Origin: a virus
Virus record (IMG/VR): IMGVR_UViG_3300003322_000675
Coordinates: 1-29,026 of that record
Strand: one strand, 5' to 3'
Length of the DNA: 29,026 nt
This document shows positions 6,260-24,894 of this stretch, piece by piece. Below the pieces are notes generated by a model. It made no database searches. It was not told where the DNA came from and saw nothing but the letters and a program-made list of their open reading frames with translations. The position numbers and the translations under genes are program-made. The number at the start of each line of letters is the position of its first letter. Position 1 is the stretch's first letter.

Positions 6260-6307
6260 AAAGTAGCAAAGTAGCTTTTCCTATAGAGAATGCTACTTTG
6301 CTACTTT
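6260..6307. repeat. 48-bp palindromic element, copy 1 (variant octamer)
   Basis: The left arm AAAGTAGCAAAGTAGC (6260-6275) and right arm GCTACTTTGCTACTTT (6292-6307) are perfect 16-bp inverted repeats. Each arm is two tandem copies of an octamer (AAAGTAGC). The 16-base spacer is centred exactly on CTATAG (6281-6286). Total length and centre match the three other copies, but the octamer differs from theirs (AAAGTGTA). Confidence 0.9.
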
Positions 6308-6317
6308 GAAAAACTCG

Positions 6318-6365
6318 AAAGTAGAAAAGTGTAATCCCTATATAGTAAATACACTTTTACACTTT
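6318..6365. repeat. 48-bp palindromic element, copy 2
   Basis: The right arm (6350-6365) is two tandem TACACTTT octamers. The left arm (6318-6333) pairs with it except at two positions, where it reads AAAGTAGA instead of AAAGTGTA, like a hybrid between the copy 1 and copy 3/4 types. The element is centred on the palindrome CTATATAG (6338-6345) and lies 10 bases from copy 1. On its right it carries the tail also found beside copy 4: 15 bases, then AAATCAACAACTTA. Confidence 0.85.
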
Positions 6366-6396
6366 GCCACAAAACTAATAAAATCAACAACTTACA
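6357..6396. repeat. Direct repeat, first copy (element tail)
   Basis: Begins TTACACTTTGCC inside the right arm of palindrome copy 2 and continues through TAATAAAATCA to TTACA. About 32 of 40 bases match the second copy, which starts 70 bases further right. The same tail, reverse-complemented, lies beside palindrome copy 4 near 24.8 kb. Confidence 0.75.
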
Positions 6397-6426
6397 CACA
6401 TTCTCAGAAAACTGAGATAAAAATCA

Positions 6427-6466
6427 TTACACTTTGCCGCAACCTTAATAAAATCAGTTATTTACA
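6427..6466. repeat. Direct repeat, second copy, overlapping the tape measure stop
   Basis: A half-copy of the element: a single arm octamer (TTACACTTTGCC), then the tail with TAATAAAATCA and TTTACA, but without a palindrome. It runs into the last codons and stop of the tape measure gene, so the 3' end of that gene is partly built from repeat sequence. Confidence 0.7.
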
Positions 6467-9102
6467 AGCTTTTTGATCGCGTCGCGGGTTTTGCCGTTTT
6501 TGTCGACCTCAATCGTGAAAAATTCTCCGAAAAGACCTGATTTATCATTAATGATGATCTGTGTTTGCGGCACGGTCGCCGAAGTATTCCGCGCCAAATC
6601 AATGATCTGTTTATCCCGATTCGAGCTGTACACATCGCCGCCGCTGCCCGCATCGTTCGACCGACTGGTCTGTGACCCATACCCGCCCGAAGTCTGCCGC
6701 TTGAATGCATCGCCCGCCACCGCCCGCCCGGCAATCGCCGCCACGCCCGCGATCGAACCGTAAAGCGCCGCCGCCGTAAAATGCGCCGTCGCCTCGGCCG
6801 GATTAAAGAAAAGCGACGCAAAGCCCGCCGCGAGCTCATAAATGGCCTTTACGGCCGCTTCAGCCGCAATGGTCGCGAGCGCCGAAGCCAAGATCTTGCG
6901 CATCACGGCCGGACCGGTATCGCCATAGAGCACCCACGTTTCGACGACCGAACCGATCGCTTGCGCCACGCTTTGAAAAGCATTTTCGAGCATTCCGGCA
7001 AAATCCGCGAACATCGACGCGAGCGTCGGCAACGTTTCCTGCGCGACGCCGAAAAATCGTTCAAGGCTATCCGTCCAACCGTCAAACAGCCCCGGCTCGC
7101 CGCCGGCGTTGGCTCTGCCCGGCGTGATATTGGGGTTCGTGCCACCGGGAGTTAAGCCCTGATTTAATTTGTCTTTTTCTTCCTGAATTCTTTGGAGAAC
7201 TTCGATCGCCCGGTCACCAGTTTTAGTCATCCGTTCATCAAGCTCGTCAAGATCTTCCAAAGATTTAATTTGAAGTTCGGCCAATAATCGGCTACGTTCA
7301 ACAATTAAATTTTTATATTCTTCAGAACCTTCTTTTTGCCGATCAATTAAAAGATTAATCAGATTTAATTCACGCACGGCGAGATCTTGTTTAAAATCAA
7401 AGATTTTTTGAGCCGATGTTTGAGCGTCCGCAGTTCGACCGCCTTCGATGGCCGCATCAAAATCCCGTTTTTCAAGAGCAATACGCCTTTCAAGTTCGGC
7501 TTTCCAAACTTCAAACTTTCTTTTTTCGTTCGCTTCAAAAATCTTTAAACTTTCATCCGACTGTTTTTTCTGAGTTTTGGTGATAAGTTCTTGTGTTTCG
7601 TTTTGGGTTTTTACGAGCCGCTCGTTTGTTTCGGTTTCGCGCGCGAGCTGCTGATCTTTGAGTAGCTGGCGTTCGTTGGCCGTTTTCTTTTCATTGTCGG
7701 CGATCTTGTTTTCGACATCGGCCAGAGACTTTTCGGCTTTTTGACGTTCGGACAAAAACCAGCTATTTAATTCGCGCAAATTATCTTGAAAATCTTCGAC
7801 GTTATCGGTTTTTGCAAATTGATCTTTAAGCGCCTGTAAACTATCGCCGTAAAGTTTTGATAATTTATCGAAATAATCCTTTCTGATTTGCAGAAGCGCC
7901 GCCGCATCGCGTTTGGCGCGCTCCTCGCGCTCTTTCTGGGCTTTTTCCTCTTCTTTGCGTTGTTTCTCAAAATCGGCGAGCGCGTTCGGGTCGAACGGCT
8001 TCGGTTTGTTGACGCCGAGCGTTGCGCCAGGCTGTCGTCCTTCTTCCAGAATTTGAAACGACTGAGATTGTCCTACCTGATTAAAATTTTGTGCTGAACC
8101 GATCACGCCTTCCGACGCGCCGCTCGTCGTAATCCCCAAAATCACACGCGATAGGATCGGATGATTATTATAAAAATCGACGACTTCTTTAAACGCTTTG
8201 ATAACGCCCGAAATAACGTTGGCGGTCGTCGTTCCCCAGTCGATGACGGATTGCTTGTTGCGCGTGAACCAGGCGCTCAGATCGCGCATTCCGTCAGTCA
8301 GCACCGGCAAAAATTGAAACGCAAATTGATTAGCAAGCCCCTGCGCCTGCGCTTTGAGCGTGTCGAGCGTGTCGCCGAAATCGTCGGCCGACGCCGCGGC
8401 CTTGTCGTCGATCGCCACGCCGAGCTCTTTGGCGCGCGCGATGAGCCCCGCCATGTCGCCGTCGAAAGATTTAATAACGGGAATAATGTCAGCGCCGGAT
8501 TTGCCGAAAGCTTCGGTCGCCAATTTGATTGCAACGACCGGATTTTCGGCATCGGCAATGCGTTTGAAAACGATCGCCAGAGAGCCGTCGAGATCGTCGA
8601 TCGCTTTTTTCGGATCGAGCCCCAATCTGACCAATGAATCTTTGGCATTGTTCGAGCCCTCGGCGGCTTCGCCCAGAAGTTTCGCGAATTTGGTGACGGA
8701 ACCAGTGACGGCTTCAAGGCTCGAACCCGACTGATCGGCCGCAAATTTGAGCGACGAAAGCGTAGTCGCCGACAAGCCGGTTTTTTGAGAAGCGTCGAAA
8801 ATTGCACTACCAAAATCGGATGCTTGTTTCGCAAGGGCAAACAAAGTTACAGTCGCCCCCACTGCAACGGCTGCCATTCCTGCAATAGCTGCGCCGGCAA
8901 TGGGCATTGCTTTTCCTAAAAGTGCGGTTTGATCTGCAGATAGGCCAAGTTTACCGGCAAAATCGGTTAAAATATTGTCGCTGGTATTTTTAATGTCTTT
9001 GGTAGCTTTCTCAACATCGTCACGAAATTGCTTCACTTCGGGAGAAGCATCATTCTTACCCTTTAGATGAAAAAGTAAGCTGATTGAATCACTTCCAAGC
9101 AT
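6454..9102 (-). CDS. Tail tape measure protein
   Basis: 882 residues. This is the longest complete tail gene of the window after the portal fusion, and it sits directly after the two chaperone-like genes, the standard siphovirus order. Residues 65-93 are a small-residue hydrophobic segment (AMPIAGAAIAGMAAVAVGAT). About 370-640 is charged and heptad-like, strongly predicted coiled coil rich in K, E, Q and R. About 745-810 is a second hydrophobic, alanine-rich stretch. Tape measures set tail length and pass through the membrane during DNA entry; at the usual 0.15 nm per residue this one would give a tail of about 130 nm (inference). The ATG at 9102 follows a run of A with no strong Shine-Dalgarno. 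No peptidase or lysozyme motif was noticed. Confidence 0.92.
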   Translation of the reverse strand: MLGSDSISLLFHLKGKNDASPEVKQFRDDVEKATKDIKNTSDNILTDFAGKLGLSADQTALLGKAMPIAGAAIAGMAAVAVGATVTLFALAKQASDFGSAIFDASQKTGLSATTLSSLKFAADQSGSSLEAVTGSVTKFAKLLGEAAEGSNNAKDSLVRLGLDPKKAIDDLDGSLAIVFKRIADAENPVVAIKLATEAFGKSGADIIPVIKSFDGDMAGLIARAKELGVAIDDKAAASADDFGDTLDTLKAQAQGLANQFAFQFLPVLTDGMRDLSAWFTRNKQSVIDWGTTTANVISGVIKAFKEVVDFYNNHPILSRVILGITTSGASEGVIGSAQNFNQVGQSQSFQILEEGRQPGATLGVNKPKPFDPNALADFEKQRKEEEKAQKEREERAKRDAAALLQIRKDYFDKLSKLYGDSLQALKDQFAKTDNVEDFQDNLRELNSWFLSERQKAEKSLADVENKIADNEKKTANERQLLKDQQLARETETNERLVKTQNETQELITKTQKKQSDESLKIFEANEKRKFEVWKAELERRIALEKRDFDAAIEGGRTADAQTSAQKIFDFKQDLAVRELNLINLLIDRQKEGSEEYKNLIVERSRLLAELQIKSLEDLDELDERMTKTGDRAIEVLQRIQEEKDKLNQGLTPGGTNPNITPGRANAGGEPGLFDGWTDSLERFFGVAQETLPTLASMFADFAGMLENAFQSVAQAIGSVVETWVLYGDTGPAVMRKILASALATIAAEAAVKAIYELAAGFASLFFNPAEATAHFTAAALYGSIAGVAAIAGRAVAGDAFKRQTSGGYGSQTSRSNDAGSGGDVYSSNRDKQIIDLARNTSATVPQTQIIINDKSGLFGEFFTIEVDKNGKTRDAIKKLVNN

Positions 9103-9150
9103 TTTTTTATTTTAGAGATTTCACCTGCACTTATTTTCAGACACAAAAAG

Positions 9151-9384
9151 TTATAAAACATCGTCGTCATCGTCTTCGACGTCTTCTTCCGGCGGGAATT
9201 TAGCGGGATCGGCGCCGAGAATAATTGCAATGCCCTGCAATTGCAATTTAAGGCGCGCCGCTTCGCGTTTGTTGTCATAGCACTGAAGTAGGTAAGACAT
9301 TACGGCTTCGAACTCAAAAGCGGTCAATTCGTCCGTGATCTGCAAAATATCGGACGCCCGGCGACGCGAATCGCGGGCGATCAA
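9151..9384 (-). CDS. Tail assembly chaperone, second reading frame
   Basis: 77 residues from a TTG, ending in an acidic tail (EEDVEDDDDDVL). The frame is open without an ATG or GTG from base 9471, so it overlaps the last 50 bases of the upstream gene (stop at 9422) in the +1 (equivalently -2) frame. In lambda-like and many other phages the gene just before the tape measure is read through a programmed frameshift (gpG/gpGT), and the C-terminal extension recruits tape measure and tube protein. Size, position, overlap and the poor start codon all fit that arrangement. I do not see a classical -1 slippery heptamer. The alternative is independent translation from the TTG. Function is inferred from synteny. 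Confidence 0.6.
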   Translation of the reverse strand: MIARDSRRRASDILQITDELTAFEFEAVMSYLLQCYDNKREAARLKLQLQGIAIILGADPAKFPPEEDVEDDDDDVL

Positions 9385-9421
9385 CGCGAGATTTAATAAT
9401 TGGGCTTCATCCTTGAGAAGA

Positions 9422-9838
9422 TTACCGACGAAATTTATCAGCGTCGGCCTGTGAACCTCGCACGATAAAATTCATAAAAAATTCGAAATCTTCCGGTAAT
9501 ATCATTTCCGGCGTGATCGATTCGTCGGTTTCCGTGAGCGTGATTTTCGGTTCAATCAGATTGTTGAGCATGACGTCGCGCGTGATGCTCATGGCGGCGA
9601 TACCGAGCTGCATGATTTCGTCCTGGGTGAGTTCTTTTTGCGGCGAGTTTCTGACCGAATCGAGCTTGGTCAAAAGATGCATCGGCAATTGCCCCGAAAC
9701 GGCGTATTGTTTGATCTCGACCGGCAAATATTTCCAGATCGCACCCGATGGCATTTCGATTTCGAGCACGTCGCCTTTTTCAATTTTTTCCTGTTTTTTC
9801 TTTTCGACGATTTCTAAGTAGGCTTGCTTTGGATTCAT
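9422..9838 (-). CDS. Tail assembly chaperone, first reading frame
   Basis: 138 residues (MNPKQAYLEIVEKKKQEKIE, then ITPEMILPEDFEFFMNFIVRGSQADADKFRR with a stop directly after). It lies between the tail tube and tape measure genes and is followed by an overlapping open frame, the synteny of the tail assembly chaperone pair. It carries a lysine/glutamate-rich N-terminus and a mostly helical body, and no enzyme motif. Such proteins coat the tape measure before the tube polymerises and are not part of the finished virion. It ends AAA TTT CGT CGG TAA; a +1 slip near this stop would join it to the 77-residue frame downstream. Confidence 0.65.
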   Translation of the reverse strand: MNPKQAYLEIVEKKKQEKIEKGDVLEIEMPSGAIWKYLPVEIKQYAVSGQLPMHLLTKLDSVRNSPQKELTQDEIMQLGIAAMSITRDVMLNNLIEPKITLTETDESITPEMILPEDFEFFMNFIVRGSQADADKFRR

Positions 9839-9859
9839 ATGATTTTAGATAAAAAGAGC

Positions 9860-9890
9860 GGGAGCGCGAAGATGGCATTTCGACACTCCC
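9860..9890 (-). terminator. Hairpin after the tail tube gene
   Basis: GGGAG (9860-9864) pairs with CTCCC (9886-9890), with an inner CGAA/TTCG stem. On the - strand the hairpin is followed by GCTCTTTTT. It lies between tail tube and chaperone genes, where an attenuating terminator would let tube protein outnumber chaperone. The stem is bulged and the U run starts four bases late, so this is tentative. Confidence 0.4.
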
Positions 9891-9927
9891 TTTTGGAGAA
9901 ACATTTGAGAAGAGAAAAGAAGCAAAA

Positions 9928-10515
9928 TTATGTCTGCCACCACCAAGCGCCAAGCCGATCGTCGGCGGCGCGCGAGGAAATTCCCACGGCGTGAAACTCG
10001 ACGTCGATGCCGGCGCGAGTCTGACGCGACAAAGGAAATTCAATGTTGCTCATATTGTGGCCCGAATAGATATGAAAGACGGCGTATTTCGTCGAATCGG
10101 CGCGCGTCGCCGCGATGACGGCAATGCCGGTATCCGAAATCGTGCCTTCGCCGATTTTAAATTTCTTTTTGCCGGTCACGGTCTGCTGAGTGCCGACGCC
10201 GGCCGAGATCGCGGCGAAAACGTCCGCATCGAGAATCTGCGCGGCCTTGCATTTAATCATCATGCCGACCTGGCTGACAGTGCGCGCGAGCGATTCTTTG
10301 TACTCGTCGAAAAACTCTTCCTCTTCGGTTTTCGAGATCGTGCAGACCGCGCCGTTTTCAGTCAGACCGATCAGTTTCGCGTTCGGATTCTCGGTCGCGT
10401 CCGGAACGCCCGACGTGAGCGTCGTTTCGGCGCCGGCGGCCGGCACGGCCAACCCGACGTAAATCATGCTCGGCCCTTTCTGGGTTTTCGTGTAATCAAC
10501 TGTATTAAGTGCCAT
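9928..10515 (-). CDS. Major tail tube protein
   Basis: 195 residues (MALNTVDYTKTQKGPSMIYV, later EEEEFFDEYKESLARTV, KFKIGEGTISDTGIAVIAAT). Length, beta-rich composition and the place just before the chaperone pair and tape measure fit the tube protein that stacks as hexameric rings to form the non-contractile tail. The central stretch containing EEEEFFDEYKES resembles the loop region of phage tube proteins of this class. No Ig-like C-terminal extension is present: the protein ends shortly after FHAVGISSRAADDRLG. Identification rests on synteny and general resemblance rather than a diagnostic motif. Confidence 0.7.
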   Translation of the reverse strand: MALNTVDYTKTQKGPSMIYVGLAVPAAGAETTLTSGVPDATENPNAKLIGLTENGAVCTISKTEEEEFFDEYKESLARTVSQVGMMIKCKAAQILDADVFAAISAGVGTQQTVTGKKKFKIGEGTISDTGIAVIAATRADSTKYAVFHIYSGHNMSNIEFPLSRQTRAGIDVEFHAVGISSRAADDRLGAWWWQT

Positions 10516-10547
10516 TTTTTAGCCTCACAAAAAATCGAAATAATAAA

Positions 10548-10853
10548 TTATTTTACGTTGTTCAAAACGGTGTTGATTTTCGCACGAACGGCGTTGTAAT
10601 GAGCGCGCCTTTTTTCGTCTTCCGAAGTTTCGCCCTCGACCGTCGCCGGATCGGGGATCGCAAAACCGCCGAAAAACGGATCGTCGTAATGCTTCGACGT
10701 AAATTCGCCGTAACTGCCGGCCTTGGCAACCGCGTCGAGCGCCTGCTGCCATTTGTCGCCAAATAAATCTTTGGCTTTTTTAACGCCGAAATTGCGCCCG
10801 ATCTGCGCGATAAAATCAACCTTTTCAGTTTTTGTTTCGTCTGTCTTTGCCAT
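10548..10853 (-). CDS. Small tail-region protein, unknown
   Basis: 101 residues from an ATG four bases after the stop of the preceding gene; the same frame is open upstream, but the extension is low-complexity and would overlap that gene. It is highly charged and mostly helical (MAKTDETKTEKVDFIAQIGR, FGDKWQQALDAVAKAGSYGE), with an aromatic/proline patch HYDDPFFGGFAIPDP in the middle. I do not recognise the family. It lies between the putative tail terminator and the tube protein, a slot that in siphoviruses often holds a small morphogenesis or connector accessory. Confidence 0.6.
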   Translation of the reverse strand: MAKTDETKTEKVDFIAQIGRNFGVKKAKDLFGDKWQQALDAVAKAGSYGEFTSKHYDDPFFGGFAIPDPATVEGETSEDEKRRAHYNAVRAKINTVLNNVK

Positions 10854-10857
10854 ATTT

Positions 10858-11379
10858 TTAACCTGGATAATTGCTGAACTCGCAGAGCCAGTTGACCTGA
10901 ATCGCAAATTTCTGCATAAACTGCGTGCCGTTGGTTCGAAGAAAATCGAATGTCGTTTCGATCGAGATCAAAGCGCCCGCACTAAAAACAATTTTAGAGT
11001 TATTTTCGAGGCTTGTTTTGGGAATGTTTTTGGTCATCGATTCGAACGCCATCGCATACTTTGAAGCGGCGACGGCAAGCCATGCCCGGTCGCCGCTGAC
11101 AAGCTCGATCGAATACTGCAAAGCGATCTCGGTTTGCGAAATATCTTCCCCGGTTTCCGAAGCGTACTGAATCCGGTTGAGCAGACACGCCGGGAAGACC
11201 GTCGGCGTATGCTCGTTGAGAAAAAAGCTCGTGTCGGCGACCGGCGGCAAGACGGGACTCGCGCCGTCGTTTGCCCAGTCGAGCGCATCCGTCTGATTGG
11301 CTTTGAACCAATCAAAAAGATTGACACCGATAATTCTCGGATCAAAAGTTTGAAATTCTATTAAATCTTCCCAAGCCAT
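10858..11379 (-). CDS. Putative tail terminator / head-tail joining protein
   Basis: 173 residues (MAWEDLIEFQTFDPRIIGVN, later YSIELVSGDRAWLAVAASKY, ETTFDFLRTNGTQFMQKFAI). The order connector, virion-morphogenesis protein, this gene, tail tube is the typical slot for the tail terminator protein that caps the tube and joins it to the head. Alternating beta and helix segments fit that small fold, but no signature residue supports it, so the name is positional. It starts two bases after the previous stop (TAAttATG), a junction used repeatedly in this operon. Confidence 0.5.
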   Translation of the reverse strand: MAWEDLIEFQTFDPRIIGVNLFDWFKANQTDALDWANDGASPVLPPVADTSFFLNEHTPTVFPACLLNRIQYASETGEDISQTEIALQYSIELVSGDRAWLAVAASKYAMAFESMTKNIPKTSLENNSKIVFSAGALISIETTFDFLRTNGTQFMQKFAIQVNWLCEFSNYPG

Positions 11380-11381
11380 AA

Positions 11382-11900
11382 TTACAAAATAATTCCCGAT
11401 TCGACCGGGATCTTGTCTTTGCGCATTATTTCGACCATTTTCTTTTGAATTTTCTTCATCATCGAAGTTTTTTGAATGTCTGAAAAATCAATCACTTTTC
11501 GCTGGGGCAATCTTTTGCCGCCGGTCTGGTGATAACGCGCATATTTTAAGCTCGTGCCGATCGTAATCCCGTCCTTTTGAATTTCGACGACCGAATCGCC
11601 GGTATGCCGCGTCAAAGATTTATAAAGCGCTTCGGTTGCGATGAGCGGCCCGGCGATCACGGCGAAAGTTCCGTATTTTTTTATTTTTTGGTATTCGGTG
11701 CTTTTGGCCAGCGGCTTCCATTTACCCGACGCGCCCGCCGCGCCGCCCGATTGAAATTGATCCTGTTCGATATGCCAAAACTCATCGCGAACCGTTTCCC
11801 AGACCGGCGTCAAATCGCCGAGATTAGCGTCGAGCCGCTTAAAAACGCGATCAAATTCTGCTTTGCCGTCGACAACCAAACTGATCCGGTAACTGCCCAT
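11382..11900 (-). CDS. Phage virion morphogenesis protein, Mu gpG-like tail completion family
   Basis: 172 residues. The family pattern is visible: an early amphipathic helix, W61 in SGKWKPLAKST followed by a lysine-rich segment, then GPLIATEALYKSLT (84-97), a beta strand ITIGTSLKYARYHQTGG (112-128), and PQRKVIDFS (132-140). In this family (Pfam phage virion morphogenesis, including Mu gpG) the segment order W-x-PL, LxxTGxLxxS, IGT..YAxxHQxG, R.xxxFS is conserved; here the TG of the second block is replaced by TEA. The product acts in head-tail joining or tail completion. It lies between the DUF6527-like gene and the putative tail terminator. Confidence 0.75.
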   Translation of the reverse strand: MGSYRISLVVDGKAEFDRVFKRLDANLGDLTPVWETVRDEFWHIEQDQFQSGGAAGASGKWKPLAKSTEYQKIKKYGTFAVIAGPLIATEALYKSLTRHTGDSVVEIQKDGITIGTSLKYARYHQTGGKRLPQRKVIDFSDIQKTSMMKKIQKKMVEIMRKDKIPVESGIIL

Positions 11901-11902
11901 AA

Positions 11903-12214
11903 TTAATCAATATTCGGCAAATCAACTGTTTCTCCTGCCAACTTATGAGTGCAATCCTCTAAAAATTGAATTTGCCCGTCTTTCACAAAAGAATGGCAAA
12001 CAAGCGGTGTAGGTTCGAATTTTTCACCGCGCATAATTTTTGCGCGTTGCTCATCTGTCAAATCTTGAGTACCTTTAACTAAAATCGAAGGCAAAACAGT
12101 CGGATTTTCAAAATCGCCGTTAAACGTCCAAATGTGCGGATCAATAAAGTGCGAACATTCGCACCCAGGACAATCAAAAAACAAAAGGTCGTTTTCAAGC
12201 TTTCGAACTTTCAT
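11903..12214 (-). CDS. DUF6527-like putative zinc-binding phage protein
   Basis: 103 residues. It has an N-terminal CPGCEC cluster (C15, C18, C20, with H22), then WTFNGDFENPTVLPSILV (29-46) and a C-terminal CHSFVKDGQIQFLEDCTHKL (73-92). This set of Cys/His positions and the FNGDxExPT..PS motif match small phage proteins that databases call DUF6527, sometimes mislabelled ammonia monooxygenase. The clustered Cys/His residues suggest metal binding (inference). The biochemical role is unknown. It starts two bases after the preceding connector gene and ends two bases before the morphogenesis gene, so it is co-translated with head-tail joining proteins although its family is not known as structural. 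Confidence 0.65.
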   Translation of the reverse strand: MKVRKLENDLLFFDCPGCECSHFIDPHIWTFNGDFENPTVLPSILVKGTQDLTDEQRAKIMRGEKFEPTPLVCHSFVKDGQIQFLEDCTHKLAGETVDLPNID

Positions 12215-12216
12215 AA

Positions 12217-12741
12217 TTAATTTGCCGAGCGTCCGTATTTATCTCTGAATTTTTTAATGATCGCGTTGGTCGTCGGCGATAGTTCAGTTTCGATCTCGAC
12301 ATCCGAGATTTTCGCGAACATCGGATCTTTGTTTCGAAAAAGATAATTGGCAAGCTCCTGCACGACGAGCTTTACTTCCGGCGGGATGGCGATAAAGCCC
12401 CAGCGCGCCGTCACCACGATCTCAGAATCTCTATCAAACGTGCCGTCTTTATAAATTAAAAATTCTTTGCGCAGCTTGTAATCGTCGGCGTCAAACACTT
12501 CATCGTCGATTAATACCTGCGTGATTGAATTTGCCACGAACGGCGGCAAACGCAGCATATCGATGTCGTTGCCGTCGAAAGTCAAGTCGGACGGATCGGC
12601 GTTTGCCGAGGCAAAGAAGTTTTCTTCAACGTCGCAAAGCAGATCGAAAAGCCGCGATGCTCCTTCGCAGTAAAAGCTTTGCGCATCTTCGTTGGCGGCT
12701 TCGGGCGCTTCGATGTTTAACGATTCGATATAATTCGCCAT
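12217..12741 (-). CDS. Head-tail connector protein, gp6-like
   Basis: 174 residues (FDLLCDVEENFFASANADPS, LPPFVANSITQVLIDDEVFD, YKLRKEFLIYKDGTFDRDSE, VVTARWGFIAIPPEVKLVVQ). The pattern of an early helix pair, a beta-sheet middle with WG.....P..vk.av..la, and a C-terminal helix resembles the gp6/adaptor class of connectors that bind below the portal ring. Here the middle insert IVVTARWGF and the PPEVKLVVQELANYLF helix are the best matches. Position between head genes and the tail-joining protein supports it. It begins one base after the previous stop. Confidence 0.6.
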   Translation of the reverse strand: MANYIESLNIEAPEAANEDAQSFYCEGASRLFDLLCDVEENFFASANADPSDLTFDGNDIDMLRLPPFVANSITQVLIDDEVFDADDYKLRKEFLIYKDGTFDRDSEIVVTARWGFIAIPPEVKLVVQELANYLFRNKDPMFAKISDVEIETELSPTTNAIIKKFRDKYGRSAN

Positions 12742-12742
12742 T

Positions 12743-12988
12743 TTAATTACAGGTCACGTAAGAAATCCGGCACACACCGACGATCTCCAGATCGTCTTTC
12801 GGATGATTGGTGCGAAATTGCTCCAGCGCGCCGTCGACGCCCGAAGTGCTTTCGACCGTTTCGCTGCGCTGCTCGCCGCAAGCCGTTCGAAAAACGATTT
12901 TCCAATCATTCGTCGGTCGAATTTGCGAAAACACCGCCACCGCCAAAAATACAAGTAAAACTAAAATTAAAATTGTCCTGCTTTTCAT
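12743..12988 (-). CDS. Small membrane or exported protein
   Basis: 81 residues. MKSR then about 17 hydrophobic residues (TILILVLLVFLAVAVFSQ) form a transmembrane helix or signal sequence; no lipobox cysteine is seen. The rest is polar with cysteines near residues 38 and 73 and at the penultimate position, so a disulfide-containing periplasmic or outer-face domain is possible. It is the first gene after the strong terminator at 13030-13074, so it may have its own promoter in the 40 bases upstream. A membrane microprotein at the head/tail boundary is out of place for a structural gene. A role in host envelope modification or superinfection exclusion is possible but unsupported. Confidence 0.6.
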   Translation of the reverse strand: MKSRTILILVLLVFLAVAVFSQIRPTNDWKIVFRTACGEQRSETVESTSGVDGALEQFRTNHPKDDLEIVGVCRISYVTCN

Positions 12989-13029
12989 AAATTCATTGTA
13001 AGAATTTCCAGAATTGCTTATTTTGAAAG

Positions 13030-13074
13030 AAAAAAAACACTGCTAAAAGTTTTTTCACTTTTGGCAGTGTTTTT
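13030..13074 (-). terminator. Strong intrinsic terminator after head genes
   Basis: An 18-bp stem (13033-13050 with 13057-13074) has a six-base loop and only one T-G wobble. On the - strand the stem runs into eight U (13037-13030). It lies 20 bases after the stop at 13095. The + strand also has a T run after the stem, so it could work in both directions. Confidence 0.85.
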
Positions 13075-13094
13075 AGAAAATGTGAAAGATATTT

Positions 13095-13825: not shown

Positions 13826-13868
13826 AATTTTTACTCCTTTTTAAGATAAAAGCGTGGGAGCGCTTCGA

Positions 13869-18889: not shown

Positions 18890-20313
18890 TAAAATATTCC
18901 GGTCGAATCGGTATCATCCATCACTAAGTATCGAAATCCGTCATACGGATCGTCGCCGCCGCGCCCTTCGTCGTCGGCGTTGACTTTCAGCACGTCGCCC
19001 GGTTTCTTCGGATTGTGAATAAGCGCCGGCAGATTTTCGATCAGCATCGTGCATCTGCGATTTATTATAACGGTGGGTTTAATGCCTTGTTTTATATCGC
19101 CGAGAAGGGTCAGGATCTTACTCGCGCCGGGCTGCCGCGAAGTGTTTGCAGGATTCAAATAAACGCCGTGTTTTGTAAAAACGTCGGCTTTCGATTCGCC
19201 GGTCTGGCTGTTGACCTCGAAACAATCCGTTCCGGCCGCAATGTTACGAAGCTGCGACGGTTTTAAATTCCAGCGCTGGCACGTCGCGGCGATCTCTTTT
19301 GCGATCTGCTCATCAAGATGCTTTCGCACCGCGCATTCGTCGAGCACGTAGATTTTGCCCTCGTATTTGTACGCCAGATAAAAAACCGCCCAGTGAATAA
19401 AACCCCAGTCGAAGCCGCCCCAGGGCATTAAGTTTTCCCAGTTCGCCGCTAAAGATTTTGGCGTGAAAAAAGCCGAGTCCGGCGCCGTGTGCAGCTCGTA
19501 ATCGAATTTGTCGAAAAACTGCCCGGCGAAAACATCCCAATTGCCGTTGAGCCACGCTTCGCGCAGCCAGCCCGTCAGCGGTTCGAGTACGGTTTTTATG
19601 TAATCGGCATTTAATTTTTTATTGTCTTTGGCAGTTGCCGGAATAAATTTAGTTTGATTTTTTTTCTCTGTTTTATTTCTGAAAGGCGTAATGAATTTTG
19701 CCTTGAACCAACCGTGACCGATACCGCCCGGATTGCTCGTGTAATAACGTCGCGGTCGAAAACCGGGTTTCGCCGAACGATTACAGGTTTTTATTTTTTC
19801 GATTTTTGATTCCGATAACTGGGTGGCTTCTTCGATGACGATGATGTCGTATTCGAGCCCGAGATAATTATCAATGTCTTTTTCGTACTGAAAATGACCG
19901 AGCAAGATGCGCGAACCGTTCGGAAAAATGATCGTCGATTTTTGCTCTTTGAACCGGTGAGGTGTAGCAAATAAAACGGATTGGCGCAGATCTTCGATAG
20001 CTTCGTTGGCCGCTTTTGCAACCTTACGCAAAAACAAAACTTTGAGCCCCGGGATTCTCTGGCAATCGTCGAGCGCGACCTGCGCAAACGTCGCGTGAGT
20101 TTTGCCGGGCCCGCGCGCGCCGCCAAAGCCGATGTCGATTGCTTCGCCGCCCAGGTCAGCCGCCCGCGCCGCGGCGTGAAACTCCAGCTGTTTCGGCTGT
20201 GGCACATAACCGGCTTTCAAAAATCTTTCGATCGTATCCCGAGGAACGCCGAGCGCTTTGGCGAGGTGCAAAAACTCAATCGTGGATTTTGGAAATATCG
20301 GTTTGGCGATCAT
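18889..20313 (-). CDS. terL: Terminase large subunit
   Basis: 474 residues. ATPase domain: Walker A GFGGARGPGKT (62-72), Walker B YDIIVIEEATQ (155-165, Glu161/162), and coupling motif YYTSNPGG (190-197). RNase H-like nuclease domain: D302 in GGFDWGF, D363 in AAGTDCFE, and acidic cluster GGDDPYDGFRY (452-462). An N-terminal segment (about 10-40, ALGVPRDTIERFLKAGYVPQ) looks like a small helix-turn-helix added before the motor. It cuts concatemers and pumps DNA through the portal coded next. It overlaps the small membrane protein upstream by ATGA and the portal downstream by TAATG, indicating tight translational coupling. Confidence 0.96.
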   Translation of the reverse strand: MIAKPIFPKSTIEFLHLAKALGVPRDTIERFLKAGYVPQPKQLEFHAAARAADLGGEAIDIGFGGARGPGKTHATFAQVALDDCQRIPGLKVLFLRKVAKAANEAIEDLRQSVLFATPHRFKEQKSTIIFPNGSRILLGHFQYEKDIDNYLGLEYDIIVIEEATQLSESKIEKIKTCNRSAKPGFRPRRYYTSNPGGIGHGWFKAKFITPFRNKTEKKNQTKFIPATAKDNKKLNADYIKTVLEPLTGWLREAWLNGNWDVFAGQFFDKFDYELHTAPDSAFFTPKSLAANWENLMPWGGFDWGFIHWAVFYLAYKYEGKIYVLDECAVRKHLDEQIAKEIAATCQRWNLKPSQLRNIAAGTDCFEVNSQTGESKADVFTKHGVYLNPANTSRQPGASKILTLLGDIKQGIKPTVIINRRCTMLIENLPALIHNPKKPGDVLKVNADDEGRGGDDPYDGFRYLVMDDTDSTGIF

Positions 20314-20510
20314 TTAACAAAAATCCAGAAATAAATAAAAAAAACAAAAAGAATTAAACCAAGCCAAAATATGAATGCTGATGAAATCATCTCAACAATG
20401 CCTTGATCGCTTAAATCTTCAGGACATTCGCAATCATCAAATAATTTCCCGCACGCCGGACACGGATGTTTCGGCTTAAGTCTTTCACTCGGTATTTGTT
20501 TCTCCAACAT
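20310..20510 (-). CDS. Small CxxC membrane protein between terminase genes
   Basis: 66 residues. The start was chosen at ATG 20510, with GAGGA ten bases upstream. It overlaps the end of the small terminase gene by 26 bases and the start of the large one by 4 (ATGA). HPCPACGKLFDDCEC (residues about 15-29) looks like a small zinc knuckle; ISSAFIFWLGLILFVFFIYF (about 43-62) is a transmembrane helix. No family is recognised. The double overlap, ribosome binding site and non-random layout (zinc motif then membrane anchor) support a real gene. Its job is unknown; membrane proteins are not part of known packaging machinery. Confidence 0.6.
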   Translation of the reverse strand: MLEKQIPSERLKPKHPCPACGKLFDDCECPEDLSDQGIVEMISSAFIFWLGLILFVFFIYFWIFVK

Positions 20511-20943
20511 TTTCTTTTTCCTCTTTTTTTTCTCCATAAACGCTGTCAATCGCCAACGTGATGTCTAAACTTAAATTACCCGACAGATTTTGATTAACAT
20601 CAACACGCTCGCGATAAACTTCGGGGCGTTTCGATTTTAGATAGAATTCCAAAAGCCGATCCGAAAACTCTTTAATGGTTTTTACCAGAACGCCTTTGTA
20701 AAAAATCGGTTTGTTATAGCCCTGAACAGATCGCCGGTAAAGCTCCTGTTCGGCGAGCTCGACAGATTTTTCAATCACGTCATCCCATGCTTGGGAAAAA
20801 CTTTCGTCATTTTTTTTGCGTTCGTAAACAGCGGCGCGAGAAATAACCGCGGCCTGACAAGCCTTCGAAACGTTGCCGTGAGTTGCCGACAGCTTTTTCA
20901 AAAACTTGGTGATTTGTTGCGGTGTTAAGTCTTTTCCCTGCAT
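20485..20943 (-). CDS. terS: Terminase small subunit (HTH)
   Basis: 152 residues. An N-terminal helix-turn-helix (about 5-45: LTPQQITKFLKKLSATHGNV, then SKACQAAVISRAAVYERKKN) precedes the conserved block FSQAWDDVIEKSVELAEQEL, YRRSVQGYNKPIFYKGVLV and FSDRLLEFYLKSKRPEVYRE. This order (AC.aAGISR..VY..R, F...W...e......E....RRaV.G, ys..LL.f.LK.rrP..Y) is typical of phage small terminases that recognise the packaging site. The acidic end (EKKEEKENVGETNTE) may contact the large subunit. It lies just before the large terminase gene. Confidence 0.85.
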   Translation of the reverse strand: MQGKDLTPQQITKFLKKLSATHGNVSKACQAAVISRAAVYERKKNDESFSQAWDDVIEKSVELAEQELYRRSVQGYNKPIFYKGVLVKTIKEFSDRLLEFYLKSKRPEVYRERVDVNQNLSGNLSLDITLAIDSVYGEKKEEKENVGETNTE

Positions 20944-20970
20944 ATAATGTCTTTTTTGTCTGTTTTAAAA

Positions 20971-21399
20971 TTATCTGATACACGCGCAGCCTTTACGTTT
21001 TGAATAAATGAGCTGCTGGTTCGCCGAGCCGCCGATTGTATGCCGCTTACGGCCGAAGATCAGCCCGCGTTCATTTAATTCGGCAAGAAGCTCGCGCACT
21101 TTGAGCGCGGTAAAATGCGACTGCTCTTCGATCTCGGCCCACGTATGGCAGCAAGTCTCGATGCACGTTAAAACGAGCTCCAATTGTTTTTCATTGTCGA
21201 GAGAAGAGACCGATTTGATGTCGCGAACCGTGCGGGCGAGATAGTGATCGAATTCGCGTTCGGATGGCGAAAGCGAGCGACGAAACTTGTTGATTTTCGA
21301 AACAAGCCGTTTGCCCGCCGACTCGGCGCTGGGCGCATCCGGTAAAATCTCGAAATCTTCAAACAAAAACGGTTGGTATATCATTGATTCGGCAAACAT
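20971..21399 (-). CDS. Winged-helix-like DNA-binding protein
   Basis: 142 residues. Residues about 30-75 are charged and helical (FRRSLSPSEREFDHYLARTV). About 78-135 read as a winged helix: ETCCHTWAEIEEQSHFTALK, VRELLAELNERGLIFGRKRH, then a beta wing ending in LIYSKRK. It is the first gene after the perfect hairpin at 21458-21490 and immediately before the terminase genes, so it may be a late-gene regulator or a packaging accessory. An internal Met at residue 6 (ATG 21384) is an alternative start. An inverted repeat (21383-21395 with 21432-21443) overlaps its start and could be an operator, possibly its own. Confidence 0.6.
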   Translation of the reverse strand: MFAESMIYQPFLFEDFEILPDAPSAESAGKRLVSKINKFRRSLSPSEREFDHYLARTVRDIKSVSSLDNEKQLELVLTCIETCCHTWAEIEEQSHFTALKVRELLAELNERGLIFGRKRHTIGGSANQQLIYSKRKGCACIR

Positions 21400-21443
21400 A
21401 ATTTTCTATAATCAGTTTTGGCGATCGCATATTGCCGAACAAT
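21383..21443. promoter_or_regulatory. Inverted repeat over the start of the late module
   Basis: ATTGATTCGGCAA (21383-21395) and TTGCCGAACAAT (21432-21443) are inverted repeats with one extra base, around an 8-bp palindrome GCGATCGC (21421-21428). They cover the leader and first codons of the winged-helix-like gene. The layout looks like an operator, but no promoter hexamers are clear. Confidence 0.35.
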
Positions 21444-21457
21444 TATGTTTTTCCGTG

Positions 21458-21490
21458 AACGTCTTTGAGTCTGATACCCTCAAAGACGTT
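21458..21490. terminator. Perfect 12-bp hairpin between early and late modules
   Basis: AACGTCTTTGAG (21458-21469) and CTCAAAGACGTT (21479-21490) are perfectly complementary with a nine-base loop. It begins four bases after the stop of the 76-residue gene on the - strand. The T run (TTTTTCTATATTT) follows on the + strand, not on the - strand, so as a classical terminator it favours rightward transcription although no rightward gene is seen. It may work as an RNA-processing or factor-dependent site for leftward mRNA. Confidence 0.55.
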
Positions 21491-21493
21491 TTT

Positions 21494-21724
21494 CTATATT
21501 TCAAATTTCGGTTCAAATATTTTTATCTCCGATAAATGAACCGACCCGGTTCTGCCGCGCTGCTCAACTAATAAAAGCGGATCGCTTGAATTGTCTAACG
21601 TGCGTAAAATAATTACTTGGTGACCGCAAGGAAAATCACCGACTTTTTGATTTGTTTCGGCAACGTGCCCCAAAGCCTTTGAAGCCTTTTTAATTCGTAA
21701 TTCTTTTATTTTTCGTCGACGCAT
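21494..21724 (-). CDS. Small protein, unknown
   Basis: 76 residues. The start at ATG 21724 is preceded by GAGGA and overlaps the end of the upstream gene by 19 bases; a longer in-frame start would overlap it fully. The N-terminus is strongly basic (MRRRKIKELRIKKASKALGH); the rest looks like a small beta-barrel (HQVIILRTLDNSSDPLLLVE, GRTGSVHLSEIKIF). A basic tail plus small barrel would suit nucleic-acid binding, but this is only compositional. It is the last gene before the hairpin that separates the early and packaging modules. Confidence 0.55.
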   Translation of the reverse strand: MRRRKIKELRIKKASKALGHVAETNQKVGDFPCGHQVIILRTLDNSSDPLLLVEQRGRTGSVHLSEIKIFEPKFEI

Positions 21725-22224
21725 AATTTCCTCATCTTCAACCCGCCGCCGGGGATCAAAAAATAAACGAGCCACGCCTGAACCGGATTGCAGGTGAAAG
21801 CGATTTTTGTATTTTCGGGATGCGAAATATAAACCAAATCGCAATCTGCCCATTTATCGAAATTACCGACTTTAACGCTCCGTACGCCGGCCCGGTAAAC
21901 ATAGACGTGCGAATCGACATAAGCGTCCAGAACGGCTTTTATCGCTTCGTCCGACATCTGCCCTGCGCTGTGCCGTAAAATCGCCTCACAGACGGCCAAT
22001 TCATCGAAAAACGCCCGCTCGGTCGGCATTAACAAATCGAACTCTTCGACCGAAAACAGTCGTGAATCCCGCTCGACTTCCGGCCGGTTCGAAGCGCGAT
22101 CGTAAACCGCGCCGATATACTTAATAACCCGTTCGAGCGTCGGCTTAGTTTTTTCAGACAAAAACACTTCCCGCAAATCGATCGCCGGATAAACAACCTG
22201 TAATTTTGGAACCAAACTAGGCAT
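21706..22224 (-). CDS. Conserved-looking early protein, unknown
   Basis: 172 residues (MPSLVPKLQVVYPAIDLREV, then IKYIGAVYDRASNRPEVERD, LMPTERAFFDELAVCEAILR). It is helical in the first 120 residues, then shows strand-like segments with HPENTKIAFTCNPVQAWLVY near the end. No motif or family is recognised. Its ATG overlaps the stop of the 49-residue gene (TAATG), and its end overlaps the next gene, so it is embedded in a translationally coupled string running on from the vWA gene. Confidence 0.6.
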   Translation of the reverse strand: MPSLVPKLQVVYPAIDLREVFLSEKTKPTLERVIKYIGAVYDRASNRPEVERDSRLFSVEEFDLLMPTERAFFDELAVCEAILRHSAGQMSDEAIKAVLDAYVDSHVYVYRAGVRSVKVGNFDKWADCDLVYISHPENTKIAFTCNPVQAWLVYFLIPGGGLKMRKLCVDEK

Positions 22225-22373
22225 TATTCTGAAATCAATATTTTGAAACTTTGTCCCGTATTTAAGACGACTTCTATTTCGCCGGTTCGTGCAATTTCCT
22301 GAACGGCTTGAACGTTATCCGCATCGTCGTTTAATAATTCAATCAAATATTCTTCAAAATCTTCTAAACTCAT
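22224..22373 (-). CDS. 49-residue microprotein coupled to its neighbours
   Basis: 49 residues, MSLEDFEEYLIELLNDDADN then VQAVQEIARTGEIEVVLNTG and QSFKILISE. It is acidic, with an N-terminal helix of E/D/L and a short C-terminal beta pair. It begins three bases after the vWA gene stop, with GGAG eight bases before the ATG, and its TAA overlaps the next ATG (TAATG). The snug fit and ribosome binding site argue that it is real despite its size. The function is unknown; it could be a partner of the vWA protein. Confidence 0.6.
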   Translation of the reverse strand: MSLEDFEEYLIELLNDDADNVQAVQEIARTGEIEVVLNTGQSFKILISE

Positions 22374-22376
22374 CTT

Positions 22377-22940
22377 TCACGCTCCTATCAATCTCGTGAT
22401 ATTTTCGCTGAGCAGATTTAATTGCCCGGTTTGATTGACGATCGACACGCCGCCGGTCGCCATCGAAAGGCGGCGCAAAAATTCGCGCCCCGCGCCGTCT
22501 TCCCGGCCGACGTAGATCGTGTCGATCTTCGACGTGAATTTCGCGGCCGCGGCGAGCGCGCCGCTTTCGTCGTCGGGTTCGCCGTCCGAAACGAGCACCA
22601 TTTTGATGCCGCAGCCGTCGGCCATTTTCATCATGTCGAGCGCGCCCGTCATATCCGTGCCGCCGCCCTGGTACACCGGAACGCCGGCCGGGCAGAACTG
22701 CGATTTATTCGAAAACGCGCAAACGGCGATTTCGCCCTCGTTTTCGTTCTGAAGCCGTTTCAACTGCTCGACTGCCGCATCATACCGGCTTTGATCGTCC
22801 GAAGCGTCCCGCGCGCTCATACTGCCCGAAACGTCTACCATCACGAGGCACTTACAATTCAAAAACGCCGTCGCCAAAGATTGATTATTTTTTCTCGCCA
22901 CCGCTCCCAAAGAGCCCTGAATAATTTGATTATTTGCCAT
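22377..22940 (-). CDS. von Willebrand factor A (vWA) domain protein
   Basis: 187 residues, almost only the vWA domain. The metal-ion-dependent adhesion site is intact: DVSGS (Asp36, Ser38, Ser40), Thr95 in GGGTDMTGAL and Asp119 in VSDGEPDD. There is no signal peptide or membrane helix, so it is cytoplasmic. GGAG lies eight bases before ATG, and it starts two bases after the previous stop. Cytoplasmic bacterial vWA proteins usually work with a MoxR-type AAA ATPase; none is coded here, and the nearest neighbours are a GNAT-like protein and a J-domain protein. It may assemble or remodel a complex, phage or host, but its target is unknown. Confidence 0.88.
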   Translation of the reverse strand: MANNQIIQGSLGAVARKNNQSLATAFLNCKCLVMVDVSGSMSARDASDDQSRYDAAVEQLKRLQNENEGEIAVCAFSNKSQFCPAGVPVYQGGGTDMTGALDMMKMADGCGIKMVLVSDGEPDDESGALAAAAKFTSKIDTIYVGREDGAGREFLRRLSMATGGVSIVNQTGQLNLLSENITRLIGA

Positions 22941-22942
22941 CG

Positions 22943-23602
22943 TTAATTCTCCAAAATATTTAATTTATGCTTGTAAAAATGCTTTCTCGCCATTTCGAGA
23001 ACAAGGCATAGCCTTGTTCTAATTTTAGAAATCAAAGAAGTTTGTTCGTTGCAGATCGTGCAAACGCAAACATCGTCGGAACCGACGAGCTTGATTTGAA
23101 CGTGCTTCCAAAAACTCTGATTTTTCTTAACGTCTTTCCAAAATAATTTCTCAGCCATTTTTACTTCTTTGTCCGCTAATTTTTCCAAAACTATTAAGCC
23201 GGATTTTGTTCGCCGCCCTGTTCGTCGCCATCCCGCCATAATGAAGCAATAACCGGGATTACTGGATTTAATTTTTTTCGCATTGACATAGGTATAATGC
23301 CTTTCACCAGGCCAGCAGAAATCAGCGACTCGGTCAGCCTGTCGGATAAGCTCAGACGAGAGATACGGGCTTTCGTTTCGGAAGATCGCGCAGTTGATGC
23401 CCTGTTCGCCCGCATCGTCGATAAACTTTCGCCAAACAAAGTAGGCGTCGCCGTCGAAGGTTCGAAGCGCAATAACTTCGCCGGGGCCGACGCATTGCGT
23501 TCGTTTTCGCCCGTCTTTGTATTTGTAGGCCGAATAATGTCTTTCATAAAATTCCAGTAAACCGGCGTCGCCGTCTTTCGTAAGCCACCAAAACAATGTC
23601 AT
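22943..23602 (-). CDS. GNAT-like conserved phage protein with C-terminal extension
   Basis: 219 residues. I prefer ATG 23602 (ATGA overlap with the J-domain gene) over a GTG two codons earlier. Residues about 15-140 match a conserved phage pattern: GPGEVIALRTFDGDAYFVWR, INCAIFRNES, SSELIRQAD, RHYTYVNAKKI, SNPGYCFIMAGWRRTGR, SGLIVLEK. The NPGYCF..AGWR segment recalls GNAT-type acetyltransferase-like folds, but the acetyl-CoA loop is not clear, so activity is uncertain. The last 75 residues (MAEKLFWKDVKKNQSFWKHV, then VCVCTICNEQ) look like a separate addition with a CxxC. A perfect 10-bp hairpin lies in the last part of the gene (22998-23020). Confidence 0.65.
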   Translation of the reverse strand: MTLFWWLTKDGDAGLLEFYERHYSAYKYKDGRKRTQCVGPGEVIALRTFDGDAYFVWRKFIDDAGEQGINCAIFRNESPYLSSELIRQADRVADFCWPGERHYTYVNAKKIKSSNPGYCFIMAGWRRTGRRTKSGLIVLEKLADKEVKMAEKLFWKDVKKNQSFWKHVQIKLVGSDDVCVCTICNEQTSLISKIRTRLCLVLEMARKHFYKHKLNILEN

Positions 23603-24453
23603 ACCCACATCAGCGAAAAACTGTCGCCGTCCCAGTAAGAAACCATTATTTGACCGTAATCATTGGTGATGTCGCGCCATTCGAGAACCTCTTCAACAAT
23701 TAGCTGGCCGAGCTCGCGCCGCGCTTTTACGCGCAAGTCGCCGCACCGGAACGGCGGCACGAAAGACGCGTATTTCGAGGCCTGCGGAGTCATTTTGGCC
23801 ATTCGTTCAAACGCGAGACCGGCGTTGTATTTGTTGCGTAATTCTTGATTCGAAAGCACGTCGTAAGCCTGTTTGATCTTTTCGAACATCTCGCGCGCGT
23901 TCTCTTCGCGGCAGATGTCGGGATGCCAGACGCGCGCCGCTCTTTTATAAGCCGTCTTGATCTCGACGCCCGACGCCTTTTCGTCGCATCCCAGAAGCCC
24001 GTAGAGCGTCCCGGCGTTTTTGTCGGTCTGTTTGAACCAGGCGCGCAGAACGCTTTCGGGGATCTTCGCCGACCACGAACCCGAAGCGTGAACGTTCGAA
24101 ACCTCGGCCTTGCAGTTGGCGACGTAATCGGCGCGAAACTCGCAGATAAAGCTCTCGGCCGCGGCGCCGATGATTGTCGGCAAAACACAGTCGCCGCCGT
24201 AATGCTCGTCGCAGAGCCGCTTTAATTCGCCGCCGTAAGCCGCGCCGACGAGCCAGCATTTCGAAGTGTTGTCCCACGCCCGCGCCGTTGCCGGGATATA
24301 ATTTTTGAGTTGCTCGACGAATTTCGCGTTGTACGGCGACCGGACTTTATACCCGCCGTTCTCGGCCGTGATCGCCACGGCCGGCGAACTGCCCGAGCTT
24401 CTCCCGCAAGCGAAAAGCGTCCCCTGATTTCCCATATTTACTAAGATTGCCAT
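23599..24453 (-). CDS. HARP-like plus J-domain (DnaJ-type) protein
   Basis: 284 residues. Residues 149-213 are a J-domain: TLYGLLGCDEKASGVEIKTA, the essential HPD at 177-179 (VWHPDICREE), then FEKIKQAYDVLSNQELRNKY. The J-domain stimulates Hsp70 (DnaK) ATPase, so it could redirect host DnaK to phage complexes. Residues about 36-90 (YKVRSPYNAKFVEQLKNYIP, RAWDNTSKCWLVG) resemble the HARP domain, known for DNA annealing in SMARCAL1-type proteins; this is my reading of a short pattern. The C-terminal 60 residues are unknown. GGAG precedes the ATG, and the leader directly adjoins the tail of palindrome copy 3. It lies downstream of the primase-helicase, so a part in replisome assembly is plausible. 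Confidence 0.82.
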   Translation of the reverse strand: MAILVNMGNQGTLFACGRSSGSSPAVAITAENGGYKVRSPYNAKFVEQLKNYIPATARAWDNTSKCWLVGAAYGGELKRLCDEHYGGDCVLPTIIGAAAESFICEFRADYVANCKAEVSNVHASGSWSAKIPESVLRAWFKQTDKNAGTLYGLLGCDEKASGVEIKTAYKRAARVWHPDICREENAREMFEKIKQAYDVLSNQELRNKYNAGLAFERMAKMTPQASKYASFVPPFRCGDLRVKARRELGQLIVEEVLEWRDITNDYGQIMVSYWDGDSFSLMWV

Positions 24454-24499
24454 CTATTTTCTCCAAAAAGTTAAATGTTGTAATCATTGGCTTTGCGCC

Positions 24500-24547
24500 A
24501 AAGTGTAAAAGTGTAATCGCCTATAGTGAATTACACTTTTACACTTT
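24500..24547. repeat. 48-bp palindromic element, copy 3
   Basis: Perfect 18-bp arms AAAGTGTAAAAGTGTAAT (24500-24517) and its complement (24530-24547), with a 12-base spacer CGCCTATAGTGA centred on CTATAG. The right arm supplies the last codons and TAA stop of the 85-residue gene. The left flank carries a degenerate form of the shared tail and then the leader of the J-domain gene. Confidence 0.92.
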
Positions 24548-24796
24548 TTGATTCTCACTCGGCGCCGCTTTCGATTTATTGGCCGCCAAAACGTCTTCGG
24601 CAAGCCCCACAATTTCTTTGAGTATGAAGGCAGCCTTTTCCGCGTCGATTCGAATTTTCAATCTTTCCTCGCCGCCATCGTGTTCGTTCAGGCAAAATTG
24701 CAATTCAATTTCGCTGTCCACGACGCTGGGCCGAACAAACAGTTCCATTCCTTCATCATTCAATTCGTCGTTAAAGCTTAAAATTTTTCCCGTCAT
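24539..24796 (-). CDS. 85-residue protein flanked by inverted 48-bp palindromes
   Basis: 85 residues from ATG 24796, preceded by AGGAG ten bases upstream; an in-frame extension to 24868 would read through palindrome copy 4 and is rejected. It opens MTGKILSFNDELNDEGMELF, continues with strands (SEIELQFCLNEHDGGEERLK, IRIDAEKAAFILKEIVGLAE) and ends in a polar tail whose final KV-stop is coded by palindrome copy 3. A small alpha/beta fold is likely; the family is unrecognised. It follows the primase-helicase gene, so a replication accessory or a regulator acting on the flanking palindromes are the obvious hypotheses; neither is shown. Confidence 0.65.
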   Translation of the reverse strand: MTGKILSFNDELNDEGMELFVRPSVVDSEIELQFCLNEHDGGEERLKIRIDAEKAAFILKEIVGLAEDVLAANKSKAAPSENQKV

Positions 24797-24846
24797 TGTT
24801 TTTTTTCTCCTAAAAATTAAGTTGTTGATTTCAGGTGGCTTGCGGC

Positions 24847-24894
24847 AAAGTGTAAAAGTGTAATTCACTATAGGCGATTACACTTTTACACTTT
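24847..24894. repeat. 48-bp palindromic element, copy 4
   Basis: Arms identical to copy 3 (24847-24864 and 24877-24894), with spacer TCACTATAGGCG, the exact reverse complement of the copy 3 spacer; the whole 48 bp is therefore copy 3 inverted. It lies five bases after the primase-helicase stop. On the - strand it is followed by 15 bases, AAATCAACAACTTA and then the ribosome binding site of the 85-residue gene. Confidence 0.92.

Follow-up and report, generated by a model that had tools for sequence, protein, structure and literature searches.

The palindromes and the genes beside them

The window, meaning the whole stretch of DNA analysed here, is a 29,026-base virus record whose main phage genes lie on the minus strand. 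A first-pass annotation had described four inverted repeats of 48 bp in it, and we confirmed all four: every arm comprises two octamers, and the centre reads CTATAG or CTATATAG (Table 1). The junction between the tape-measure gene and the gene that follows contains copies 1 and 2, and copy 3 precedes a DnaJ-domain gene. Copies 1 to 4 have 21, 19, 21 and 21 of 24 positions paired, and none of 200 dinucleotide shuffles of the window gave a palindrome with at least 19 of 24 pairs. Folding as single-stranded DNA yielded -16.4, -7.5, -15.3 and -16.1 kcal/mol for copies 1 to 4, with z-scores of -8.1, -4.2, -9.1 and -9.2. The imperfect member is copy 2, in which the left outer octamer is AAAGTAGA and the centre CTATATAG. 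The octamer AAAGTGTA occurs exactly 12 times in the window, each time inside one of the two clusters. Copy 1 has AAAGTAGC in its place and copy 2 is a hybrid, possibly reflecting a second specificity or a decaying site.

Table 1. Palindromes, flanking boxes and neighbouring genes in the window
Feature	Position	Strand	Details
Copy 1	6260..6307	.	iteron AAAGTAGC, centre CTATAG
Copy 2	6318..6365	.	mixed iterons AAAGTAGA/AAAGTGTA, centre CTATATAG
Copy 2 flank GCCACAA + box AAATCAACAACTTA	6366..6394	+	inverted relative to the 24.5-kb cluster
Truncated fifth copy	6428..6465	+	one octamer (TACACTTT) + GCCGCAA + box AAAATCAGTTATTTA
Copy 3 flank GGCGCAA + degenerate box	24460..24499	-
Copy 3	24500..24547	.	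between the 109-aa ORF and the DnaJ-domain gene
Small ORF between copies 4 and 3	24539..24796	-	no family match
Copy 4 flank GCCGCAA + box AAATCAACAACTTA	24818..24845	-
Copy 4	24847..24894	.	AAAGTGTA x2 - CTATAG - inverted x2; starts 5 nt after the end of the Prim-Pol gene
Prim-Pol / PriCT_1 / AAA_25 primase-helicase, proposed initiator	24900..26876	-	Pfam E 5e-38, 2e-16, 2e-21
Primase-helicase C-terminal segment, probable winged helix, proposed iteron reader	24903..25169	-	hmmsearch MecI E 0.014 (weak)
197-aa protein upstream of the primase-helicase	26937..27530	-	phrog_862 E 1.5e-6

The repeat unit exceeds the palindrome, as copies 2, 3 and 4 continue on one side into GCCRCAA or GGCGCAA and a AAATCAACAACTTA-like box. 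A stricter box pattern, AAATCAANNNNTTA, is confined within the window to the two palindrome clusters. Copy 3 is the exact reverse complement of copy 4 and the outer flanks of both point the same way, so that the 12-bp centre (CGCCTATAGTGA or TCACTATAGGCG) is flipped relative to the co-directional flanks, as if the inside of the palindrome had been turned around. GC skew was uninformative as an origin marker, since it tracks gene orientation or is monotonic.

Models of the primase-helicase itself are poor. The AlphaFold model of the whole protein has a mean pLDDT of 61.8, too low for use, and the helices of its C-terminus score 41-62; an HHalign comparison of this C-terminus with that of RepA-type helicases was not significant (probability 5.9). 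The sole PDB profile matched by the Prim-Pol alignment was that of a vapE-like protein, along the ATPase region (E 1.6e-8). By synteny, the 197-aa protein holds the position of an annotated ssDNA-binding protein in Roseobacter phage CRP-823. The 109-aa ORF has a more plausible start at ATG 24796, and its TAA stop is supplied by copy 3. Genes for a DnaJ-domain and a von Willebrand A-domain protein (22377-24453) adjoin the replication gene, a pairing also seen in MW202444 (L007), L185, L187 and L190, and make up a putative chaperone-like phage module. An imperfect inverted repeat with 34-nt arms (26871-26944) spans the start of the Prim-Pol gene.

Conservation in the phage family of the window

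Relatives were obtained by a terminase search; a single-sequence search with the Prim-Pol gave none. The true relatives L185 (record G001) and L187 have Prim-Pols 64-71% identical to that of the window, and relatives that share the palindrome junctions are about 50% identical in terminase. L187 carries two AAAGTGTA palindromes inside the interval from Prim-Pol to DnaJ, with deviating cores (CGTAAG, CTATACC). In G001, whose Prim-Pol is 64% identical, AAAGTATA iterons surround CCTATATAGG about 20 nt after the Prim-Pol gene, and a second copy lies just before the tape-measure gene, ~18 kb from the first and in inverted orientation as in the window. The proposal in the first-pass annotation that the palindromes form a functional unit, and did not arise by chance, is thus supported, since both L187 and L185 keep palindromes at the same junctions. 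Its claim of a constant length and centre survives in part: the layout is kept in relatives, but iteron sequence, length and exact core vary.

Other records show that the element is not universal and may not be fixed in place. G003 has the tape-measure-side copy only (AAAAGGTA iterons, CTATATAG core, box AAAATCAACACTTTA) and lacks the element beside Prim-Pol, and G004 has one copy, in the structural-gene region. No CTATAG palindrome was found in L184, L186 and G007, some of them fragments, which have related terminases and no detected Prim-Pol; the element therefore follows the replication protein and not the structural genes, and its position may shift. L007 has no such element despite a related Prim-Pol (36% identical). 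A further terminase relative contains a perfect 44-bp palindrome (L191:19750-19793) centred on CTAAATATTTAG and free of iterons.

Recurrence beside phage helicases

Scans with the exact octamers matched two virus contigs and two contigs of a bacterial genome collection, the bacterial matches being unrelated single-octamer hairpins that resemble terminators. A looser AAAGTGTA pattern matched 13 contigs, with L187 alone as a true relative. In the two virus contigs, GTGTAAAA iterons lie around GCCTATAGGC ~110 nt after an AAA_25 helicase gene. We fetched 80 relatives of this helicase and found that the architecture recurs repeatedly with other iterons (GTAGAAA, GTATGAAA, ACTACAAA, TGTCCTAA, GTACCA, GTCGGAAA and others) around CTATAG, CTTTAG, CTTAAG or similar cores. 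Prim-Pol proteins with the domain order of the window, such as that of L009, have GGGACA versions. Across phages the iteron varies and the core is mostly CTATAG, CTTTAG or CTATATAG.

Of 155 phage loci that encode a RepA/Prim-Pol-type helicase, 67 were positive in a strict detector for a 2+2 inverted-iteron palindrome no more than 420 nt 3' of the stop codon of the helicase, compared with 3 of 2,860 control windows; many loci are close relatives and not independent, so these counts overstate the number of separate events. This detector replaced a looser hairpin detector, which was dropped because it matched too many controls (37/864). A sequence-free scan for any 6-mer repeated twice and then inverted twice returned 81 clusters from helicase loci totalling 1.41 Mb and one from simulated sequence, and nearly all of the 81 lie 30-250 nt 3' of the helicase stop. 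Cultured phages with the element are Roseobacter CRP-823, Alteromonas PB15, Idiomarinaceae 1N2-2 and Rhizobium 16-3, with a looser arrangement in Salicola CGphi29. It is absent from BFK20 (L094), MW202475 (L096) and the Salmonella locus L097.

Further repeat arrangements were seen at several loci. Three distant AAA_25 loci (L084, L087, L089) have dense GC-rich repeats after the stop (CCGGAC, CGGGAC, GTGACA), at 10-14 copies per 380 nt and lacking a clear CTWTAG core. Five further loci (L206, L209, L210, L211, L215) have a short ORF ending in ...AEMLNVTRATLYSWSK, which is HTH-like, followed by TATACACTTTTTATACACTTTTTATACACTTTT repeats, the first of which apparently contains the stop codon of the ORF. 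In L208, L212 and L214, GTGTAACA repeats adjoin AAAATCAGCAACTTA, a box identical to that of the window.

Strand polarity of the core

Perfect hairpins with a TTTA loop occur at 0.622 per kb downstream of the helicase versus 0.012 per kb elsewhere, a difference of ~50x based on 21 distinct cases. The complementary TAAA loop was found in three distinct cases, none with iterons. A palindrome that acts as double-stranded DNA needs no preferred strand, and the TTTA loop may therefore be read as single-stranded DNA, in the manner of the ssi sites of RSF1010. The box is polar as well: AAATCAANNNNTTA downstream of 13 helicases, the window included, was in the sense orientation 13 times and antisense 0 times, with about 0.24 expected.

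Iterons change together with the C-terminus of RepA-type helicases

We compared iterons and C-termini in 53 distinct RepA-type helicases, in which no Prim-Pol domain was detected and which fall into 14 iteron classes. In pairs with 97-100% identical ATPase regions, the C-termini are 80-88% identical if the iterons differ and 92% identical on average if they are alike. The gap persists at lower ATPase identity, with C-terminal identities of 0.68 versus 0.81 and of 0.46 versus 0.74 for differing and agreeing iterons. A residual test by label permutation gave p=0.0005 for iteron against C-terminus; two ATPase segments served as controls, of which one had no effect and the other a smaller one (0.048 against 0.073), so the signal is partly phylogenetic. 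Stronger evidence for co-variation comes from the near-identical pairs L060/L062, L063/L069 and L046/L051.

In the recognition helix, NKR accompanies G-initial iterons, whereas loci with ATACCA have NKS or NKN there, or in a few cases NES; two separate close pairs, L060/L062 and L064/L065, are among the examples. AlphaFold models the RepA-type C-terminus as a winged helix with pLDDT 85-97, mostly above 90, and the ATPase has its greatest structural similarity to RSF1010 RepA (1g8y). Collectively, the co-variation suggests that the C-terminal winged helix of the helicase sets iteron specificity in the RepA-type relatives, and by extension the same may apply to the Prim-Pol of the window. We also considered whether the GTG within AAAGTGTA is a primase start. 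NrS-1 and pRN1 primases begin at GTG (PMC8718748, PMC4234260), but most relatives' iterons contain no GTG, and the idea was rejected as a general rule.

Alternative explanations

We consider it likely that the palindromes are iteron-plus-hairpin elements of a replication origin, with the octamers bound by the C-terminus of the phage's own Prim-Pol/RepA-type helicase. Among the four hypotheses of the first-pass annotation, replication-origin iterons for the primase-helicase is favoured; a plain regulator site, a terminator and a mobile palindrome fit less well.

The palindromes could instead be operators at several gene junctions for a dimeric or tetrameric transcription regulator of the phage, a repressor or a late activator. 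Multiple dispersed copies, two of them adjoining the tape-measure gene, and dyad symmetry about an AT-rich centre speak for such operators, as do promoter-like matches at 6356-6384 and 6426-6454, although the matches are near shuffle expectation (3 vs 1.3 +/- 1.2) and none lies at 24.3-25.0 kb. In relatives, however, the site tracks the 3' end of the helicase gene and not promoters, and the identity of the iteron co-varies with the helicase's own C-terminus. RepA-type loci hold up to 14 iteron copies in 380 nt, which would be unusual for an operator. We regard a regulator operator as unlikely.

Stable hairpins directly after the stop codons of the Prim-Pol gene and the 109-aa ORF, together with the hairpins of one octamer and a T run that occur in unrelated bacterial genomes (L182), might point to a transcription terminator or RNA-processing hairpin at gene ends. 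This is very unlikely. A terminator search detected no terminator-like site (GC-rich stem then T run) at either cluster, which also lack a U tract, and an Rfam scan gave no match to curated families. A terminator would leave the direct iterons outside the hairpin and the co-variation of iteron and protein unexplained, and in relatives a copy lies upstream of the tape-measure gene instead.

It is highly improbable that a small REP- or MITE-like palindrome has been spreading in phage genomes, even though a single 29-kb record contains four and a half copies and has an extended repeat with flanks in which the centres of copies 3 and 4 are flipped. The corresponding junctions are occupied in relatives about 50% identical in terminase, and relatives show the same layout in another sequence, an outcome not expected if a mobile element had been copied; moreover, scans with the exact pattern returned only the two virus contigs and two unrelated bacterial hairpins noted above. 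Least probable of all is a site for site-specific recombination or telomere resolution, for which the constant short core in a long palindrome and the tandem pair at 6.3 kb might argue. Tandem pairs, variable iterons and the presence of four copies in a genome do not suit a telomere. Neither an integrase nor a protelomerase was recognised in the window proteins that were scanned, and two related records, MW202444 (L007) and CRP-823, carry an annotation as circular.

Comparison with known origins

The origin reading is best described, we infer, as an origin of the SaPI/pRN1/P4 type, in which an initiator helicase is followed just downstream by iterons and a hairpin, in this case with a helicase of the RecA-fold RepA type and a hairpin core that is conserved and strand-polar. 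The oriV of RSF1010 combines RepC iterons, the RepA helicase, the RepB' primase and the ssiA and ssiB hairpins for strand-specific priming. A separate protein, RepC, binds the iterons there, whereas iteron binding is apparently fused to the helicase in the phages. Phage P4 has two separated sites, ori and crr, comparable to the two separated repeat clusters of the window and its relative G001; its repeats are laid out differently, its sites are closer together than in the window and its primase is of the TOPRIM type, in place of which the window has Prim-Pol. The P4 alpha protein is a primase-helicase whose C-terminal winged helix binds the ori repeats (summarised in PMC4234260).

In the Sulfolobus plasmid pRN1, the replication protein is a Prim-Pol whose C-terminus forms a winged helix, and an essential stem-loop begins 54 bp downstream of its gene; the authors proposed a like layout for Bordetella phage BIP-1 (PMC4234260). 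The window shares this layout, with a Prim-Pol (E 5e-38) and a downstream hairpin (z about -9). It differs in having AAA_25 and iterons, where pRN1 has an SF3 helicase and, according to its authors, no iterons; the pRN1 stem-loop, at ~100 nt with a large loop, is also unlike that of the window (PMC4234260).

According to PMC7581432, pairing of an initiator helicase with an iteron origin downstream is established for SaPI and has biochemical support for Cch2 of SCCmec, the C-terminal domain of the helicase binding short iterons directly downstream of its own gene. The window shares iterons directly 3' of the helicase gene, with copy 4 lying 5 nt after the stop. As described, the SaPI and Cch2 helicases would belong to another family than the AAA_25/RecA-fold RepA type indicated here, and the passages compared describe no 2+2 palindrome centred on CTATAG or CTTTAG; the Cch2 iteron AAGTG given there resembles the window octamer, as a short-motif match only (PMC7581432). 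In the PLE satellites of Vibrio cholerae, the DNA-binding domain of the RepA initiator and the origin iterons swap together, with an origin-directed nuclease as a plausible selective force (PMC8263062). PLE differs in its initiator, a RepA_N protein that has an N-terminal reader and is not a helicase-primase, and in its three semi-palindromic iterons of ~30 bp (PMC8263062). The element described here differs from those of SaPI, pRN1 and PLE apparently in the type of helicase, in a 2+2 palindrome whose polar core stays constant and, within the family of the window, in the presence of two distant sites.

A proposed origin and its mechanism

In the origin that we propose, the octamers would be sites for the C-terminal winged helix of the primase-helicase encoded beside copy 4. 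The inverted octamer pairs would bring together two helicase assemblies that face each other across the core, CTATAG or CTATATAG, which is AT-rich and may melt or extrude as a hairpin and so permit helicase entry and the start of a primer. We would place the origin proper at the 24.5-24.9 kb pair, and the inverted 6.3-kb pair beside the tape-measure gene could be a second origin or a control site like P4 crr, acted on by the same protein. CRP-823, PB15, 1N2-2 and L009 each have a single iteron cluster, in contrast to the two of the window, and the second cluster needs further explanation.

A broader reading, which we put forward tentatively and hold to be somewhat short of an even chance, is that these phages represent a so far undescribed class of origin, with a RecA-fold helicase of the RSF1010 RepA type fused to a winged helix that reads freely exchangeable iterons. 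The strand-polar core (loop TTTA, TATA or TATATA) would then be constant because it is a primase start or helicase-entry site. The two sites in the family of the window, ~18 kb apart or roughly half of a ~39-kb genome, would act together, and iteron and reader would change in step, with origin-directed nucleases or competing elements as a possible selective pressure. Literature searches, which covered sources other than subscription journals, returned no earlier description of the sequence or of such an origin in RepA-type phages.

These findings raise the questions of whether the constant loop is the primase start site and why the family of the window has a second site beside the tape-measure gene. 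Natural pairs of near-identical helicases that differ in iteron and winged helix (NKRQ with GTACCA, NKSQ with ATACCA) make the switching of recognition directly testable. A rule for locating replication origins in many uncultured phages would also follow: immediately 3' of a RepA/Prim-Pol helicase gene, search for 2+2 inverted-iteron palindromes whose core is of the CTWTAG type.
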